DNA of 47,322 nt from Georgenia thermotolerans (lineage in GTDB: Bacteria; Actinomycetota; Actinomycetes; Actinomycetales; Actinomycetaceae). Shown piece by piece: positions 15,572 through 43,426 of this stretch. The stretch covers positions 1 through 47,322 of the forward strand of contig NZ_VUKF01000039.1 in the NCBI RefSeq assembly GCF_009193185.1, in the 5' to 3' direction. The translations under genes were made by a program, and so were the position numbers. The notes beneath the pieces were generated by a model, which did not search any database, was not told where the DNA came from, and saw only the letters and a list, made by a program, of their open reading frames with translations. Each line of letters opens with the position of its first letter. Positions within the stretch are counted from its first letter, which is position 1.

Positions 15572-18316
15572 GTGACCAGCTCCCGCAAGCTCGTGATCGT
15601 CGAGTCGCCCGCCAAGGCGCGCACCATCGGCGGCTATCTCGGGCCCGACTTCGAGGTCGAGGCCAGCGTGGGGCACATCCGCGACCTCCCGCAGCCCTCC
15701 GAGCTCCCGCCGGAGATGAAGAAGGGCCCGTACGGGAAGTTCGCCGTCGACGTCGAGGGCGACTTCGACCCCTACTACGTCGTCGACTCGGACAAGAAGA
15801 AGAAGGTCACCGAGCTCAAGCGGGCCCTCAAGGACGCCGACGAGCTCTACCTGGCCACGGACGAGGACCGCGAGGGCGAGGCGATCGCCTGGCACCTGCT
15901 CGACGTCCTCAAGCCCAAGGTGCCGGTCAAGCGCATGGTGTTCCACGAGATCACCAAGGAGGCGATCAGCCGGGCCCTGGAGAACACCCGCGAGCTGGAC
16001 ACCCGTCTCGTCGACGCCCAGGAGACCCGCCGCATCCTCGACCGCCTCGTGGGCTACGAGGTCTCGCCCCTGCTGTGGCGCAAGATCAAGCCGGGCATCT
16101 CCGCCGGGCGCGTGCAGTCCGTGGCCACCCGCATGGTCGTCGAGCGCGAGCGTGAGCGCATGGCCTTCCGGTCGGCGTCCTACTGGGACGTCAAGGGCAC
16201 GTTCACCGGCGGGCCCGAGGACGACCGCGGCCAGTTCGTCGCCCGCCTGACCACCCTCGACGGGCACCGCGTGGCCACCGGCCGGGACTTCGGCGACGAC
16301 GGCCTCCTCAAGAGCGCCGCCGGGAAGGCCGGCGTGGTCCACCTGCACCAGGCCGAGGCCGCCGCGCTGGCCGCGGCGCTGGAGCGGGCCGAGGCGCGGG
16401 TGGTCTCCATGGAGACCAAGCCGTACACCCGCCGGCCCGCCGCGCCGTTCACCACCTCCACCCTCCAGCAGGAGGCCTCCCGCAAGCTGCGCATGAGCGC
16501 CCGGGAGACCATGCGCACCGCGCAGGGCCTGTACGAGAACGGCTACATCACCTACATGCGTACCGACTCGCCGGTGCTGTCGGGGCAGGCCATCGCCGCC
16601 GCCCGCCGGCAGGCGGCGGAGCTGTACGGCCCCGAGTTCGTCCCCGACAAGCCCCGCCTCTACGGCGCGAAGGCCAAGGGCGCGCAGGAGGCGCACGAGG
16701 CCATCCGCCCCGCCGGGGACTCCTTCCGCACCCCGGCCCAGGTCGCCAACCAGCTCAGCGGCGCCCAGTTCCGCCTCTACGAGCTCATCTGGAAGCGCAC
16801 CGTCGCCTCGCAGATGGCCGACGCCCGCGGCTCCACCGCCACCGTCCGCCTCGCCGCCACCGCGGCGCTCGAGGACGGCGCGCGCCGGGCCGAGCTTTCG
16901 GCCTCGGGCACCGTCATCACCTTCCGCGGATTCCTCGCCGCCTACGAGGAGGGCCGCGACGCCGACCGCTACGAGGGCGGCGCCGAGAAGGAGACCCGCC
17001 TGCCGGTGCTCACGGAGGGAGACCCGGTCGACACCGACGCGGTCACCGCCGAGGGCCACGAGACCACCCCGCCGCCGCGCTACACCGAGGCGTCCCTGGT
17101 CAAGGCGCTGGAGGAGCGCGGCATCGGCCGCCCGTCCACCTACGCCGCGACCATCTCGACGATCACCGACCGCGGCTACGTCGACCGGCGCGGCCAGGCG
17201 CTGGTGCCGACCTGGCTGGCGTTCTCGGTGGTGCGCCTGCTCGAGGACAACCTGCCCCGGCTGGTCGACTACGACTTCACCGCCGAGATGGAGGACGACC
17301 TCGACCGCATCGCCTCGGGCGCCCAGGACCGGGTCGACTGGCTCTCCCGCTTCTACCGCGGCGACGCCGCCACGGAGAACCCGGGTCTCAAGGAGCTCGT
17401 CGACGGGCTGGGCGACATCGACGCCCGCGCCGTCAACAGCATCGAGATCGGCGACGGGATCACCCTGCGGGTGGGCCGCTACGGCCCCTACCTCACCGCC
17501 CTGGGGGAGAACGGCGAGGAGCGGCGCGCCAGCGTGCCCGACGACGTCGCCCCCGACGAGCTGACCGTCGAGAAGGCCCGCGAGCTCCTCGAGCGCCAGA
17601 GCGACGACGGCCGCGAGCTCGGCACCGACCCCGCCACCGGCCACGCCATCGTCGCCCGCGTCGGCCGCTTCGGGCCCTACGTCACCGAGGTGCTGCCCGA
17701 GGAGGACGACGACGCCGCCCCCGCCGCCGCCGCGGACGGGAAGAAGCCCGCCCGGAAGAAGGCCGCGAAGGCCAAGCCGCGCACCGCCTCGCTGTTCAAG
17801 TCCATGCAGCTCGAGACCGTCACCCTCGAGGACGCCCTCCGGCTGCTGTCCCTGCCCCGGGTGGTCGGCACCGACCCCGACGGGGTGGAGATCACCGCCC
17901 AGAACGGCCGCTACGGGCCCTACCTCAAGCGCGGCACCGACTCGCGGTCGCTGGCCACCGAGGACCAGATCTTCGACATCACCCTCGAGGAGGCCCTGGC
18001 CATCTACGCCCAGCCCAAGCGCGGGCGCGGCGCCACCGCCAAGCCGCCGCTGCGCGAGCTCGGGGAGGACCCCACCAGCGGCAAGCCGGTGGTCGTCAAG
18101 GACGGCCGGTTCGGCCCCTACGTCACCGACGGCACGACCAACGCCACCCTGCGCAAGGACGACGACGTCGAGACGATCACGCCCGAGCGCGGCTACGAGC
18201 TGCTGGCCGAGAAGCGCGCCAAGGGGCCGGCCAAGAAGCCCGCCCGGAAGACCGCGGCGAAGAAGACCACGACGAAGGCGAGCACCACCAAGGCCAAGGC
18301 CGCCGCGAAGAAGTAG
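15572..18316 (+). CDS. topA: DNA topoisomerase I (type IA)
   Basis: Relaxes negatively supercoiled DNA; 914 aa. The TOPRIM domain begins with LVIVESPAKARTIGGYL and contains DEDREGEAIAWHL (metal-binding acidic triad). The active-site Tyr is in YITYMRTDSP (Tyr at about residue 328). The C-terminus has repeated RYGPYL/RFGPYV modules (four copies between about 630 and 850) instead of zinc fingers and ends in a Lys/Ala-rich tail, both typical of actinobacterial TopA. GTG 15572 is the only in-frame start near the TOPRIM domain. A -10-like TACCGT at 15506-15511 may be its promoter. Confidence 0.97.
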   Translation: MTSSRKLVIVESPAKARTIGGYLGPDFEVEASVGHIRDLPQPSELPPEMKKGPYGKFAVDVEGDFDPYYVVDSDKKKKVTELKRALKDADELYLATDEDREGEAIAWHLLDVLKPKVPVKRMVFHEITKEAISRALENTRELDTRLVDAQETRRILDRLVGYEVSPLLWRKIKPGISAGRVQSVATRMVVERERERMAFRSASYWDVKGTFTGGPEDDRGQFVARLTTLDGHRVATGRDFGDDGLLKSAAGKAGVVHLHQAEAAALAAALERAEARVVSMETKPYTRRPAAPFTTSTLQQEASRKLRMSARETMRTAQGLYENGYITYMRTDSPVLSGQAIAAARRQAAELYGPEFVPDKPRLYGAKAKGAQEAHEAIRPAGDSFRTPAQVANQLSGAQFRLYELIWKRTVASQMADARGSTATVRLAATAALEDGARRAELSASGTVITFRGFLAAYEEGRDADRYEGGAEKETRLPVLTEGDPVDTDAVTAEGHETTPPPRYTEASLVKALEERGIGRPSTYAATISTITDRGYVDRRGQALVPTWLAFSVVRLLEDNLPRLVDYDFTAEMEDDLDRIASGAQDRVDWLSRFYRGDAATENPGLKELVDGLGDIDARAVNSIEIGDGITLRVGRYGPYLTALGENGEERRASVPDDVAPDELTVEKARELLERQSDDGRELGTDPATGHAIVARVGRFGPYVTEVLPEEDDDAAPAAAADGKKPARKKAAKAKPRTASLFKSMQLETVTLEDALRLLSLPRVVGTDPDGVEITAQNGRYGPYLKRGTDSRSLATEDQIFDITLEEALAIYAQPKRGRGATAKPPLRELGEDPTSGKPVVVKDGRFGPYVTDGTTNATLRKDDDVETITPERGYELLAEKRAKGPAKKPARKTAAKKTTTKASTTKAKAAAKK

Positions 18317-26407: not shown

Positions 26408-28142
<1,735 letters not shown>

Positions 28143-33912: not shown

Positions 33913-34638
33913 ATGAGCACCGGCGCCATCCTCACCGCCGCCGGGTCGGGCACCCGGCTCGGCCACCGCATGCCCAAGGCGCTCGTGGAGCTCGCCGGCG
34001 TGCCGCTGGTGGTCCGCGCCGCCCGCGGCCTGGCGCTCGCCGGCTGCGTCGACGCCGTCGTCGTGACCGTCCCGCCGCACGAGGTGCGCGGCTTCCAGGC
34101 GCTCTTCGCCGGCGCCCGGGTGCCCGGCCCCCGCCTGCCGGTGCGCATCGTCCCGGGCGGGGCGACCCGGCAGGCCTCCGTCGCCGCCGGGCTGGCCGCG
34201 CTGGCGGAGGACGTCGACGTCGTCCTCGTCCACGACGCCGCGCGCTGCCTCACCCCGCCCGAGGTCGTCCAGCGGGTGGCGGCCGCCGTGCGCGCCGGGC
34301 ACCGCGCCGTCGTCCCTGCGCTGCCCGTCACCGACACGATCAAGGCCGTCGGCGCGCCGGACGGCAGCGGCGCCGAGCCCGTGACCGCCACCGTGGACCG
34401 CGCCGCGCTGCGCGCCGTGCAGACCCCGCAGGGCTTCGACCGGGCGCTGCTCGAGGCCGCGCACGCCGCCGGGGCCGCCCGTGCCGCCGACGAGGCGTTG
34501 GCCGCGTCCGACGACGCCGGGCTGGTCGAGGCGCTCGGCGAGGCGGTGTGGGTCGTCCCTGGGCACGACCGGGCCCTGAAGATCACCACCCCGCGGGACC
34601 TGGCCCTCGCACGCGTGCTGCTCGACGGCGAGGCCTGA
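33913..34638 (+). CDS. ispD: 2-C-methyl-D-erythritol 4-phosphate cytidylyltransferase
   Basis: Third step of the MEP isoprenoid pathway: MEP + CTP to CDP-ME; 241 aa. The nucleotide-binding start is [21 protein letters not shown] with the conserved Arg and Lys, then [32 protein letters not shown] and [19 protein letters not shown] 33913 follows carD by 73 bases. The last 39 bases of the gene region (34602-34640) are repeated at 34717-34755 beyond an array of 19-bp repeats. Confidence 0.95.
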
Positions 34639-34640
34639 CC
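34602..34640 (+). repeat. ispD-tail direct repeat, copy 1
   Basis: 39 bases ending two bases after the ispD stop; matches 34717-34755 at 36 of 39 positions. Confidence 0.92.
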
Positions 34641-34660
34641 GCGCCCCCTCCGCCCCGCGG

Positions 34661-34717
34661 CGAGACGTCAAGTTGTGCGCGAGACGTCAAGTTGGGCGCG
34701 AGACGTCAAGTTGGGCG
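34661..34717 (+). repeat. 19-bp repeat array B (three tandem units)
   Basis: CGAGACGTCAAGTTGTGCG (34661-34679) and CGAGACGTCAAGTTGGGCG twice (34680-34698 and 34699-34717). Units 2 and 3 are identical; unit 1 differs at one base. Confidence 0.97.
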
Positions 34718-34755
34718 GTCCTCGCGCGCGTGCTGCTCGACGGCGAGGCCCGACC
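34717..34755 (+). repeat. ispD-tail direct repeat, copy 2
   Basis: Duplicate of the ispD 3' end (GTGCTGCTCGACGGCGAGGC core) with the stop codon TGA changed to CGA. It is in a different frame relative to ispD (offset 115 bases) and is not coding. Confidence 0.92.
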
Positions 34756-34779
34756 GGGAGCGGCCGGCTGCCCGCCCGC

Positions 34780-39344: not shown

Positions 39345-40556
39345 GTGAGCAGCGAGACCTGGAACCGCACCGAGGCCGTCATCGTCGCGGCGGCCCTGGA
39401 GCCGCTGGACGTGGCGAGCCACCTGGCCGCGGCTGCGGTGGTCGCCCGCCTCGAGTGGTACCCGAGCACCGAGCACCTGCTCTCGGTCTCCCTGCTCACC
39501 GACGCCGCCGGCCGGGTGGCCCGCAACGCCGACGGCGTGCTGGAGCCCGGCCCGGCCGCCGCCGATCTCGCCGATGCGCTCACCGAGGCCTTCGACGTCG
39601 ACGTGCTCATGGAGGGCGTGCCGGCACGGCGGGTGGCCGGGGAGGCGGCCGGCGCGGGCGAGGCCGGCCCGGGCGAGGGCGGCGCGGGCGAGGGCGGCGC
39701 GGGCGCGCCTGGCGCCGCGGGTCCGCAGACCCCCGGGGCCGCCGCGCAGCCGACCGGGGCCGAGGGGGCTGGTGCGCTGCCGGTCGTCACCGAGGAGGAC
39801 GTCGACCACGACGCCCGCACGGTGGTGCTCACCCCCATGCCGGCCCACCAGGCGCCGCTGCACGCGACGCTGCTCGAGCGCACGGTCACCGTCCTCGAGC
39901 AGCCGGTGGGGGAGGAGACCCGCCGCCTGCTCGTGACGACCGGTCCCGGCCGCGAGCTCGGGGTGCTCGGCTGGGACGCCGACGCCTACCCGGTGCTGCG
40001 CCTGCAGGTCGACGCCGAGGACCGCACCACGCTGCTGCTGCCCGGCCCGGAGGTGGACGACGACGAGCCCGAGGGCACGGCCGTGTTCAGCTGGGCCATG
40101 CAGAGCCTGTACGTGTACGGCGGCGCGAGCGGCGCCGAGGCCTCCCCGGTGCGCGAGCTCGCCCACGAGCTGCTCGGCGACGGCGCCGACGCCGCGGCCT
40201 TCGCCGCGGCGGTGCCCGGCGCCGACCCCGACGCGGTCGCGGCCGCGCTGCGCCTGCGCGGCGCCGACGGGCTCGCGGCGTTCGTCGCCGCGCTCGGGCT
40301 GCCGGCCGCCGTCACGGAGGTGCTCGAGGGCCGCACGTCGCCCGCGGAGCTGCCCGGCGCCGTCGTCCACGAGCCGGCGCGGCTGGACAGGGCGGCCGCC
40401 ACCGCCGCCAAGATCGCGTTCGAGTCCAGCGTGCCCGGCCGGGCGGTGCGCGAGCCGGCCGTGCAGCGCCGGCTGCTTCGCGGGGCGGTGGCCGGCCTCG
40501 GGGCGCTGGCCGCGGGGGCGGCGGTGTCCGCCGTCGTGCGCCGCGCGCGACGGTAG
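39345..40556 (+). CDS. Unrecognised 403-aa protein with Gly/Ala-rich linker
   Basis: I do not recognise this family. The N-terminal 90 residues (ETWNRTEAVIVAAALEPLDV onward) and the central part (LLVTTGPGRELGVLGWDADA) look folded, separated by a Gly/Ala/Glu/Pro-rich linker (about 103-145) containing the repeated GEGGAGEGGAG. The C-terminus has a hydrophobic stretch (LLRGAVAGLGALAAGAAVSAVV) followed by RRARR, which could be a tail anchor. GTG 39345 has GAAGGAG seven bases upstream. It follows rlmB by 14 bases and is probably in its operon. Confidence 0.75.
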   Translation: MSSETWNRTEAVIVAAALEPLDVASHLAAAAVVARLEWYPSTEHLLSVSLLTDAAGRVARNADGVLEPGPAAADLADALTEAFDVDVLMEGVPARRVAGEAAGAGEAGPGEGGAGEGGAGAPGAAGPQTPGAAAQPTGAEGAGALPVVTEEDVDHDARTVVLTPMPAHQAPLHATLLERTVTVLEQPVGEETRRLLVTTGPGRELGVLGWDADAYPVLRLQVDAEDRTTLLLPGPEVDDDEPEGTAVFSWAMQSLYVYGGASGAEASPVRELAHELLGDGADAAAFAAAVPGADPDAVAAALRLRGADGLAAFVAALGLPAAVTEVLEGRTSPAELPGAVVHEPARLDRAAATAAKIAFESSVPGRAVREPAVQRRLLRGAVAGLGALAAGAAVSAVVRRARR

Positions 40557-40601: not shown

Positions 40602-40664
40602 CGAGACGTCAATTAGTTCCTGATTTGCAGGAGTAATTCCTGATTGCAGGATCGACCTCTCACA
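40602..40664. repeat. Repeat cluster C: one GAGACGTCAA unit plus two TTCCTGATTGCAGGA units
   Basis: CGAGACGTCAA at 40602-40612; TTCCTGATTTGCAGGA at 40617-40632 and TTCCTGATTGCAGGA at 40637-40651 (20 bp apart; one extra T in the first). A degenerate reverse unit GACCTCTCAC follows at 40654. Each TTCCTG..CAGGA unit is itself a small dyad. Lies between two convergent genes. Confidence 0.88.
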
Positions 40665-42011: not shown

Positions 42012-42131
42012 CGAGACGTCAACTGTGGCACGAGACGTCAACTGGTGCTGGACCGTGCGACAGCGGCGTGCCCGCGACCGAGTTGCCGTCTCGCGCCGGA
42101 TTTGACGTCTCGCGGCGGAGTTGACGCCTCG
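42012..42131. repeat. 19-bp repeat array D: two forward and three reverse units
   Basis: Forward CGAGACGTCAACTGTGGCA (42012-42030) and CGAGACGTCAACTGGTGCT (42031-42049). After 25 bases, three contiguous reverse units (42075-42093, 42094-42112, 42113-42131) read on the minus strand CGAGACGGCAACTCGGTCG, CGAGACGTCAAATCCGGCG and CGAGGCGTCAACTCCGCCG. Period exactly 19 bp within each block. Confidence 0.97.
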
Positions 42132-42160: not shown

Positions 42161-42187
42161 CGGGGCGGGCCGTTCCGGCCCGCCCCG
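42161..42187 (-). terminator. Hairpin downstream of the ABC ATPase gene
   Basis: Perfect 11-bp stem CGGGGCGGGCC / GGCCCGCCCCG with a 5-base loop, 30 bases after the msiK stop on the minus strand. Confidence 0.75.
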
Positions 42188-42216
42188 CTCCCGCCTCGCG
42201 GCGGCGTGTCAGTTCG

Positions 42217-43344
42217 TCACTGCGGCAGGCGCTCGCCCGTCGCGGCGGAGAACACGTGCTGCTCGCCCTCGCGGATGCGCACGTGGATGGTCTCGCCCTT
42301 GGCGGGCACGTCGCGCGGGTCGATGCGGACGATGACCTGGTCGGAGTCCTCGCCCGAGCCCAGGTGCTCGGCCAGCTCGCGCGAGCCGGACAGCTCGCCG
42401 TAGACGTAGGCGTCCGAGCCGAGCTCCTCGACGAGGTTGACCGTCACCGGGATGGTGCCCGGCCCGCCGGTCGGCACGCGGTCGAGGGACTCGGGGCGGA
42501 AGCCCAGGACGACCTTGCCGTTGTCCGCGGCGCTCAGCGCGTCGACGGTCGCCCGGGTCAGCGGCACCCGCGCCTCGCCGAGCACGGCCTCACCGTTCTC
42601 CACGTGGAAGTCCCCGAGGTTCATGGCGGGGGAGCCGATGAAGCCGGCGACGAAGACGTTGGCCGGGGTGTCGTACATCTCCCGCGGGGTGCCGACCTGC
42701 TGCAGGACGCCGTCCTTGAGCACCGCGATGCGGTCGCCCATGGTCAGCGCCTCGGTCTGGTCGTGGGTGACGTAGACGGTGGTCACGCCCAGGCGCCGCT
42801 GCAGCGAGGCGATCTGGGTGCGGGTCTGCACGCGCAGCTTGGCGTCGAGGTTCGACAGCGGCTCGTCCATGAGGAACACGCGCGGCTGGCGCACGATCGC
42901 CCGGCCCATGGCCACGCGCTGGCGCTGGCCGCCGGAGAGGGCCTTGGGCTTGCGGTCGAGGTACTCGGTGAGGTCGAGGATCCGGGCGGCCTCCTTGACC
43001 CGGGTCTCGATCTCGGCCTTGGGGGTGCCGGCGATCTTCAGGGCGAAGCCCATGTTGTCCGCCACCGACATGTGCGGGTAGAGCGCGTAGTTCTGGAAGA
43101 CCATGGCGATGTCACGGTCCTTGGGCTGGACGTCGGTGACGTCGCGGTCGCCGATGTAGATCCGGCCCGAGTTGACGTCCTCGAGCCCGGCGAGCATCCG
43201 CAGCGAGGTGGACTTCCCGCACCCGGACGGGCCGACCAGGACGAGGAACTCGCCGTCGGCGATCTCGAGGTCGAGGGCGTCCACCGCGGGACGCTCGGAA
43301 CCGGGGTAGACCCGGGTGGCTTTGTCGAAGGTGACTGAGGCCAT
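42217..43344 (-). CDS. msiK: Multiple-sugar ABC transporter ATPase (UgpC/MsiK type)
   Basis: 375-aa ATPase that can energise several sugar importers. Walker A VGPSGCGKSTSLRMLAGLE, Q-loop VFQNYALYPHMSV, signature LSGGQRQRVAMGRAIV, Walker B VFLMDEPLSNLDAKLR, H-loop VTHDQTEAL. The C-terminal 130 residues form the MalK-like regulatory TOBE/OB domain. No permease genes are adjacent, which fits a shared MsiK. ATG 43344 has GGAG upstream; a dyad CCGGCA-N6-TGCCGG (43363-43380) lies just ahead and could be a regulatory site. Confidence 0.92.
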   Translation of the reverse strand: MASVTFDKATRVYPGSERPAVDALDLEIADGEFLVLVGPSGCGKSTSLRMLAGLEDVNSGRIYIGDRDVTDVQPKDRDIAMVFQNYALYPHMSVADNMGFALKIAGTPKAEIETRVKEAARILDLTEYLDRKPKALSGGQRQRVAMGRAIVRQPRVFLMDEPLSNLDAKLRVQTRTQIASLQRRLGVTTVYVTHDQTEALTMGDRIAVLKDGVLQQVGTPREMYDTPANVFVAGFIGSPAMNLGDFHVENGEAVLGEARVPLTRATVDALSAADNGKVVLGFRPESLDRVPTGGPGTIPVTVNLVEELGSDAYVYGELSGSRELAEHLGSGEDSDQVIVRIDPRDVPAKGETIHVRIREGEQHVFSAATGERLPQ

Positions 43345-43362
43345 GGTGATTTCTCTCCTCCA

Positions 43363-43380
43363 CCGGCAGGTACGTGCCGG
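43363..43380. promoter_or_regulatory. Small dyad before the msiK ribosome site
   Basis: CCGGCA-GGTACG-TGCCGG; perfect 6-bp arms. Possible operator or leader hairpin. Confidence 0.35.
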
Positions 43381-43426
43381 ACGATCCGTAGTGAAGGTGC
43401 CAGGTCGTGTCCGCTCTGACACAGCA

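Follow-up and report, generated by a model that had tools for sequence, protein, structure and literature searches.

A 19-bp tandem repeat near gene ends in Georgenia, a REP-like element and candidate boundary of transcription units

A 19-bp tandem repeat in Georgenia thermotolerans looks like a fast-changing marker of gene ends with a species-specific spelling. Its basic element is a single arm, in which a C-rich leader of ~20 nt precedes one to seven head-to-tail units; many arms lie in sense orientation shortly behind a stop codon, their sites are gained and lost quickly, and the genes that end in one-armed arrays have weaker hairpins behind them. From these sequence comparisons we tentatively propose a REP-like gene-end repeat that may serve as a factor-read, sense-direction boundary of transcription units. 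The starting point was one array in the window, by which we mean the whole 47,322-nt stretch of DNA analysed here; the genome that contains it (G000; 4.64 Mb in 116 contigs) is one of nine genus genomes compared (G000 to G008), among them its sister G002.

RESULTS

The array at 42012-42131 and its relatives in the window

An earlier, sequence-only reading of the window described five units at 42012-42131, two forward and three reverse, in strict 19-bp register, and the core coordinates bear this out: cores lie at 42013 and 42032 on the forward strand and at 42083, 42102 and 42121 on the reverse strand, with a step of exactly 19 bp inside each block. Three of the five cores are exact GAGACGTCAA, and the other two carry one mismatch each (GAGACGGCAA and GAGGCGTCAA). 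Because the inner cores of the opposed blocks are 51 bp apart, the forward and reverse blocks are out of mutual register. The related units that the same reading placed in three other gaps of the window were located at 27899-27946, 34662-34709 and 40603 (Table 1). With up to one mismatch allowed, the window contains 14 core matches, whereas 100 shuffles gave 1.64 on average and never more than 6. Two of these matches, at 16185 and 41467, lie apart from the arrays and carry one mismatch each.

Table 1. Coordinates of the repeat arrays and neighbouring features in the window
Feature	Position	Strand	Remarks
Three-unit array in divergent gap	27891..27947	-	Between protocatechuate-dioxygenase-like gene and LysR-type gene; exception to gene-end rule
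C-rich leader (34644-34660) and three units (34661-34717)	34644..34717	+	Empty in G002
Single unit in convergent gap	40602..40620	+	46 nt past stop at 40556; absent in G002
Forward block, two 19-bp units (42012-42030, 42031-42049)	42012..42049	+	Antisense to both neighbouring genes
Reverse block, three 19-bp units (42113-42131, 42094-42112, 42075-42093)	42075..42131	-	Sense to msiK-like gene
GC-rich inverted repeat between msiK-like stop codon and reverse block	42161..42188	.	Seen directly; also in G002
ABC-transporter ATPase gene, msiK-like	42217..43344	-	Pfam ABC_tran and OB_MalK on ORF 42217-43422; start (43344) from in-house gene caller

The earlier reading did not include the association with stop codons, the sense orientation or the C-rich leader, all three of which the 42012 site, atypical among the arrays, displays poorly. 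Its forward block has no clear C-rich leader, and decayed units occupy the counterpart place in G002; its reverse block begins 86 nt past the msiK-like stop and is missing in G002. Upstream of the msiK-like ATPase gene beside this array, an msiK RNA motif (RF01747, 62.5 bits) lies at 43349-43405 on the reverse strand, and an Rfam scan of the window returned only a tRNA and this msiK RNA. In the 34661 array the first core lies 23 nt past the stop at 34638 of a forward-strand gene. The 37-bp end of the gene preceding this array (34605-34641, stop codon region included) recurs directly behind it at 34720-34756 (35/37), a repeat that is unique among the listed clusters.

The reading further expected the units to be in excess genome-wide, to keep their 19-bp spacing and to lie mostly between genes. 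All of this was found: exact GAGACGTCAA cores number 161 in the genome and exact pairs at 19-bp spacing 58, against 0 of each in the reversed control, and only 9 of the 61 listed clusters fall within an ORF of our in-house gene caller, which relies on codon bias and whose starts are unreliable. Three of these nine are lone cores and six are arrays, for which the caller may have over-extended a start.

Units, arms and leader

The matches listed for G000 comprise 61 clusters, 73 arms and 228 units, where units have up to two mismatches and some weak members are included (for example, the forward unit of L049). G000 thus holds at least 61 clusters, counted from the matches listed; other searches added more, nine of which were retrieved. 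Among the matches listed, arms contain one to seven units, most commonly three (29 of 73 arms), and the unit reads [CT]GAG[AG]CGTCAA[GC]T, followed by partly free positions. It is the single arm, and not the layout of two forward and three reverse units, that forms the basic element.

Each arm has a sharp and a ragged side. On the leader side, none of the 64 arms with at least two units has a unit at up to three mismatches one step upstream, whereas toward the far side the mean number of mismatches in these arms rises along units 0 to 3, from 0.09 through 0.47 and 2.69 to 5.05. The leader, measured over positions -23 to -7 relative to the first core, is C-rich and G-poor (64 arms), and all 64 arms have G two bases ahead of that core. 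The C content of the leader is 62% in the 42 arms that follow a stop and 59% in the 22 that do not; because it is C-rich with or without a preceding stop, the leader seems integral to the element. The first five bases past the stop are 77% C in 43 array genes, compared with 47% in 93 others. Adjacent units in one arm also resemble each other in their variable part (0.677 vs 0.501 for random units), as expected from tandem duplication.

Position relative to genes

Among the matches listed, 43 of 72 arms start 8-46 nt past a supported stop on the same strand, as do 16% of random intergenic points and 2.4% of random points. The contexts of the 61 listed clusters are 16 convergent, 2 divergent and 32 same-strand gaps, 9 called ORFs and 2 contig edges, and array-free gaps of at least 60 nt in the same stretches number 13 convergent, 40 divergent and 70 same-strand, so that gaps with and without arrays differ strongly when convergent are set against divergent ones (p = 2e-6). 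A remaining gap of <30 nt, which would be operon-like, is found in 2 of 29 same-strand pairs with arrays vs 74 of 145 without. Five of the nine further arrays from a profile search begin 4-20 nt past a supported stop; the profile was trained with the leader included, so the leaders of these arrays are not independent evidence. Several observations count against the gene-end reading: for 29 of the 72 arms no same-strand stop with support is found within 60 nt, the 27891 array stands in a divergent gap, and of the two arms at 42012 one is antisense and the other lies beyond the GC-rich inverted repeat.

Opposed arms and hairpins

The 42012 array folds to -77.5 kcal/mol over 124 nt, and its opposed layout had been taken to suggest a hairpin or cruciform. 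As a general rule this is not supported, with 12 of the 61 listed clusters two-armed and 49 one-armed. In 6 of the 12 two-arm clusters the inner cores are spaced by exactly 38 bp, in a seventh by 114 bp (6 x 19), and five of the six clusters with 38-bp spacing, L049 being the exception, have strong inner stems, one of them a perfect 21 bp; the good pairing of the inner units in these five shows that a palindromic subset exists. Between opposed arms, the outer units resemble each other no more than random arms do (0.505 vs 0.501, permutation 0.74). Convergent genes can bear one arm apiece, and we interpret opposed arms in this way, with the palindromic subset in addition.

One-armed arrays have an opposed unit within 100 nt in 0 of 43 cases at up to two mismatches, and in 18 of 43 at up to three vs 31% in the control. 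The unit itself is not palindromic: the mean longest stem is 4.05 in the 228 G000 units vs 3.87 in shuffled ones, and stems reach 6 bp in 14 of the 228, the same as in shuffles (6.3%); the first units of G008 score somewhat higher (5.06 vs 3.98, n = 16). As RNA, one-armed arrays hardly fold better than shuffles (mean z -0.71, 31 arrays), and the T run of intrinsic terminators was not seen in the arrays inspected by eye; inverted pairs, unlike one-armed arrays, do form stems.

Local hairpins at gene ends are weaker with one-armed arrays (median -21.1, n = 34) than without (-26.9, n = 78; p = 2e-6), coding windows giving -23.7 by the same measure (215 windows), and G002 orthologues that lack the array have the stronger hairpin in 9 of 9 pairs (p = 0.004). 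Hairpins beyond the array often persist, 2 of 9 being as strong as in the G002 orthologues. When the sequence beyond arrays is compared with that after stops, the hairpins differ weakly (26 vs 76 genes; p = 0.09, and p = 0.026 for the first 60 nt), and part of the hairpin weakness may simply reflect the space and composition of the arrays.

Spellings and turnover in the genus

The common core is GAGNNGTCA, with a 19-bp step in most species. Pairs of GAGNNGTCA at this distance number 195 in G000, 147 in G003, 109 in G008, 7 in G005, 3 in G002 and 0 in G001, G004, G006 and G007. Related elements with other spellings occur in G003, G005, G008 and G004: GAGAGGTCAAGT is frequent in G003 and GAGATGTCATCT in G008, each with variants, and the form in G004, detected through a k-mer excess, is GAGCGGTCAAGT or GAGAGGTCAAGT; there, most copies either stand singly behind a C-rich leader or form compact inverted pairs that have such a leader at each side (for example, L178, L179 and L181). 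Palindromic ends are found in G005 and G008. At L177 of G004 (1035-1130), three units, each with its own C-rich leader, are spaced 38 bp apart, twice 19, and the 19-bp register might stem from such a 38-bp leader-plus-unit module.

In three of the nine genomes (G001, G006 and G007) the element was not found in the sequence searched: sense units within 80 nt past gene ends were seen at 0 of 15, 0 of 165 and 0 of 68 ends, respectively, and a period scan for 19-bp families in samples of G001, G004, G006 and G007 gave nothing convincing, the samples being small (17 kb for G001, 24 kb for G005, 117 kb each for G004 and G007 and 217 kb for G006). An unbiased sample of G003 had sense units at 0 of 50 gene ends and antisense units at 2, despite the many arrays of that genome. 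A GCGATGTGACGTT-like 13-mer with a 22-bp step lies in G006 (L130, near 5200, reverse strand), in a gap matching that of the G000 34661 array, and one copy lies in G001 (L129, near 5105, reverse strand); this 13-mer may be unrelated to the element. Palindromes like TGCAATCGGTTGCA are strongly over-represented in the sampled stretch of G007 (L168, L169 and L170); they were judged regulator operator-like and set aside.

A six-gene tree groups G000 with G002, then G008, then G004, places G003 and G005 beside G007, and joins G001 with G006. Although G002 is 95% identical to G000 across the six genes, almost all arrays are missing from it: at the four window sites, arrays are absent at three and decayed units remain at the fourth, and elsewhere remains were found at C39:147356 and C11:77593, most other sites being empty. 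Of the window gaps, three are comparable in other species, with the species' own spelling present at 3 in G008 and 1 in G003, and the fourth has no matching flanks. In a gene-level test that excluded pairs below 55% protein identity, the genes with arrays in G000 also bear the element in 3 of 6 cases in G008 vs 3 of 34 other genes (p = 0.03) and in 1 of 7 vs 2 of 19 in G004; no sharing was seen in G003 (0/6), G002 (0/10), G006 (0/3) or G005, G007 and G001 (0/1 each). Together, the absent or decayed sites in G002 and the modest gene-level sharing point to rapid gain and loss of sites.

DISCUSSION

Comparison with known systems

The closest likeness is to REPs, which Di Nocera et al. 2013 (PMC3733652) describe as short, intergenic, present in many copies per genome and mostly located in convergent or same-strand gaps near ORF 3' ends, at convergent genes mostly <20 bp from them. 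According to the same paper, REP families can be species-specific, opposed pairs occur, GTAG- and CGTC-tagged types are distinguished, the latter without a dedicated transposase, and the described REPs are palindromic, with stems of ~8-9 bp in the CGTC family and negligible head-to-tail dimers; Actinobacteria are not mentioned in the text of that paper. Our arrays likewise lie mostly between genes and near ORF 3' ends. The GTAG or CGTC tag of REPs sits unpaired at one end; CGTC lies within the G000 unit, and G003, G004 and G008 have GGTC or TGTC in its place. In contrast to REPs, the G000 unit has no palindromic, stem-bearing form of 20-40 bp, head-to-tail 19-bp copies (up to seven per arm) are the rule and opposed pairs the minority, a C-rich leader is attached and the orientation is sense; the RAYT family of GTAG REPs and REPINs was not found in the nine genus genomes. 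The non-palindromic unit, the strict tandem register and the missing RAYT distinguish this element from described REPs.

DNA uptake sequences of Neisseriaceae (PMC3630211) also have a per-species spelling (dialects) and often form inverted pairs linked to terminators, and they occur in thousands of copies per genome, commonly within genes. The likeness lies in a short sequence spelt differently per species; the difference lies in the 161 exact cores of G000, their mainly intergenic location and their tandem register. Rho-dependent terminators with their rut sites are C-rich, G-poor stretches of ribosome-free RNA after a stop codon, and to our knowledge they have no sequence-specific tandem repeat. 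The leader of the arrays is similarly C-rich and G-poor past the stop, but it is just ~20 nt long. Intrinsic terminators differ in that one-armed arrays lack a marked RNA hairpin and, in those inspected by eye, a U run. Sal-box arrays of eukaryotic rDNA are oriented tandem terminator sites downstream of the transcription unit that are read by TTF-I. They provide a working analogy, namely short oriented tandem sites just past a transcription unit; they are eukaryotic, confined to one locus type and read by a known protein, whereas the present arrays are bacterial and lie at many genes, and their reader is postulated.

Candidate function and alternative explanations

Both roles that were first proposed from the letters of the window, binding sites for a protein and a repeat that has spread, still stand. 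The reading that we tentatively prefer gives the arrays a boundary function, in which a trans-acting factor would recognise the unit as DNA or RNA and would cause transcription to end or the mRNA 3' end to be fixed; the ribosome-free C-rich leader may assist, for example via Rho loading, and the number of units would shift through tandem duplication. The weaker hairpins at array gene ends fit factor-read arrays that replace hairpins at the ends of transcription units; that G002 manages without almost all arrays, that the G003 sample showed no sense unit at gene ends and that species share array genes only modestly count against this reading. A more specific version, built on the Sal-box analogy, in which a fast-evolving sequence-specific protein would read the oriented tandem 19-bp sites past stops, reader and spelling would change together and some species would have lost the system, we regard as improbable. 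Much of the same picture would come from a functionless repeat tolerated at gene ends, because REPs also sit near ORF ends (PMC3733652). Such a selfish, non-autonomous REP- or MITE-like repeat, useless to the host, would be spread by some enzyme and tolerated past stops, its spellings reflecting copying bursts from a single source. This alternative agrees with the patchy occurrence within the genus, the empty sites in the close sister and the 37-bp duplication of the preceding gene's end that flanks the 34661 array, and we consider it doubtful, since no Y1_Tnp family, the only transposase family examined, was found in 9 of 9 genomes, a general flanking duplication is absent (1 of 61 listed clusters, the others at or below control), tolerance alone does not account for the strict sense orientation and the 19-bp register, and G008 has its own spelling at array genes more often than at others.

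If the functional form were instead the inverted pair, which would stabilise mRNA or act as a bidirectional stem-loop terminator, the one-armed arrays would be decayed or half-copied versions of it. The 38-bp and 114-bp inner spacings, the perfect 21-bp stem, the compact inverted pairs of G004 with leaders on both sides and the palindromic ends in G005 and G008 speak for this; it is nevertheless decidedly improbable, because one-armed arrays are the rule among the listed G000 clusters, their opposed units are absent at up to two mismatches and occur at up to three in 18/43 vs 31% in the control, and opposed arms have outer units that do not match. Clustered operator or nucleoid-protein sites, acting in regulation or chromosome structure rather than at transcript ends, would explain the regular 19-bp spacing, a core that varies between species as in protein-site co-evolution and the location of the 27891-27947 array inside a divergent promoter gap. 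We consider them very unlikely, as arrays avoid divergent gaps (2 of 50 classified intergenic clusters) and their position is linked to the stop of the upstream gene rather than to the start of the downstream one. Should the preferred boundary function hold and arrays end transcripts, they would constitute a factor-read terminator type in high-GC bacteria, and the G000 and G002 orthologues form natural pairs with and without an array, so the role is directly testable. If the repeat is selfish, it would be a REP-like family spread or homogenised without RAYT, the enzyme that accompanies GTAG REPs, and would bear on the movement of CGTC-type REPs, for which PMC3733652 likewise reports no dedicated transposase.

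Mobility and searches beyond the genus

Mobilisation by RAYT was rejected, as PF01797 (Y1_Tnp) had matches in 0 of the 9 genus genomes and in 5 of 14 control genomes. A target-site duplication was likewise discarded as a general mark of insertion, being seen in 1 of 61 listed clusters (window 34661); flanking direct repeats of the remaining clusters score at most 12, compared with up to 16 in 200 controls. Phage carriage was also set aside, since the two viral contigs with one match each were judged chance.

Searches of the open-access literature listed nothing recognised as this 19-bp repeat. The exact G000 spelling was found in three stretches of the genome contig collection, which may not include the genome of the window; one was from Georgenia and two were judged chance. 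A draw of 191 other genomes of the family gave 3 singletons, and the reversed control gave 1 in G008 and 3 elsewhere. A sequence-only profile run on 81 family genomes, including four of the nine genus genomes, matched 88 times in G000 and 13 times in G004, and one match in G015 (E 2e-4) was judged unconvincing. In a draw of 297 genomes of the order, with G000 as the sole congener, five genomes had one match and G333 had two adjacent ones. G333, which belongs to another family of the same order, carries at L145 and L148 three GAGCNGTCAGAC-like units 19 bp apart, which may be chance.
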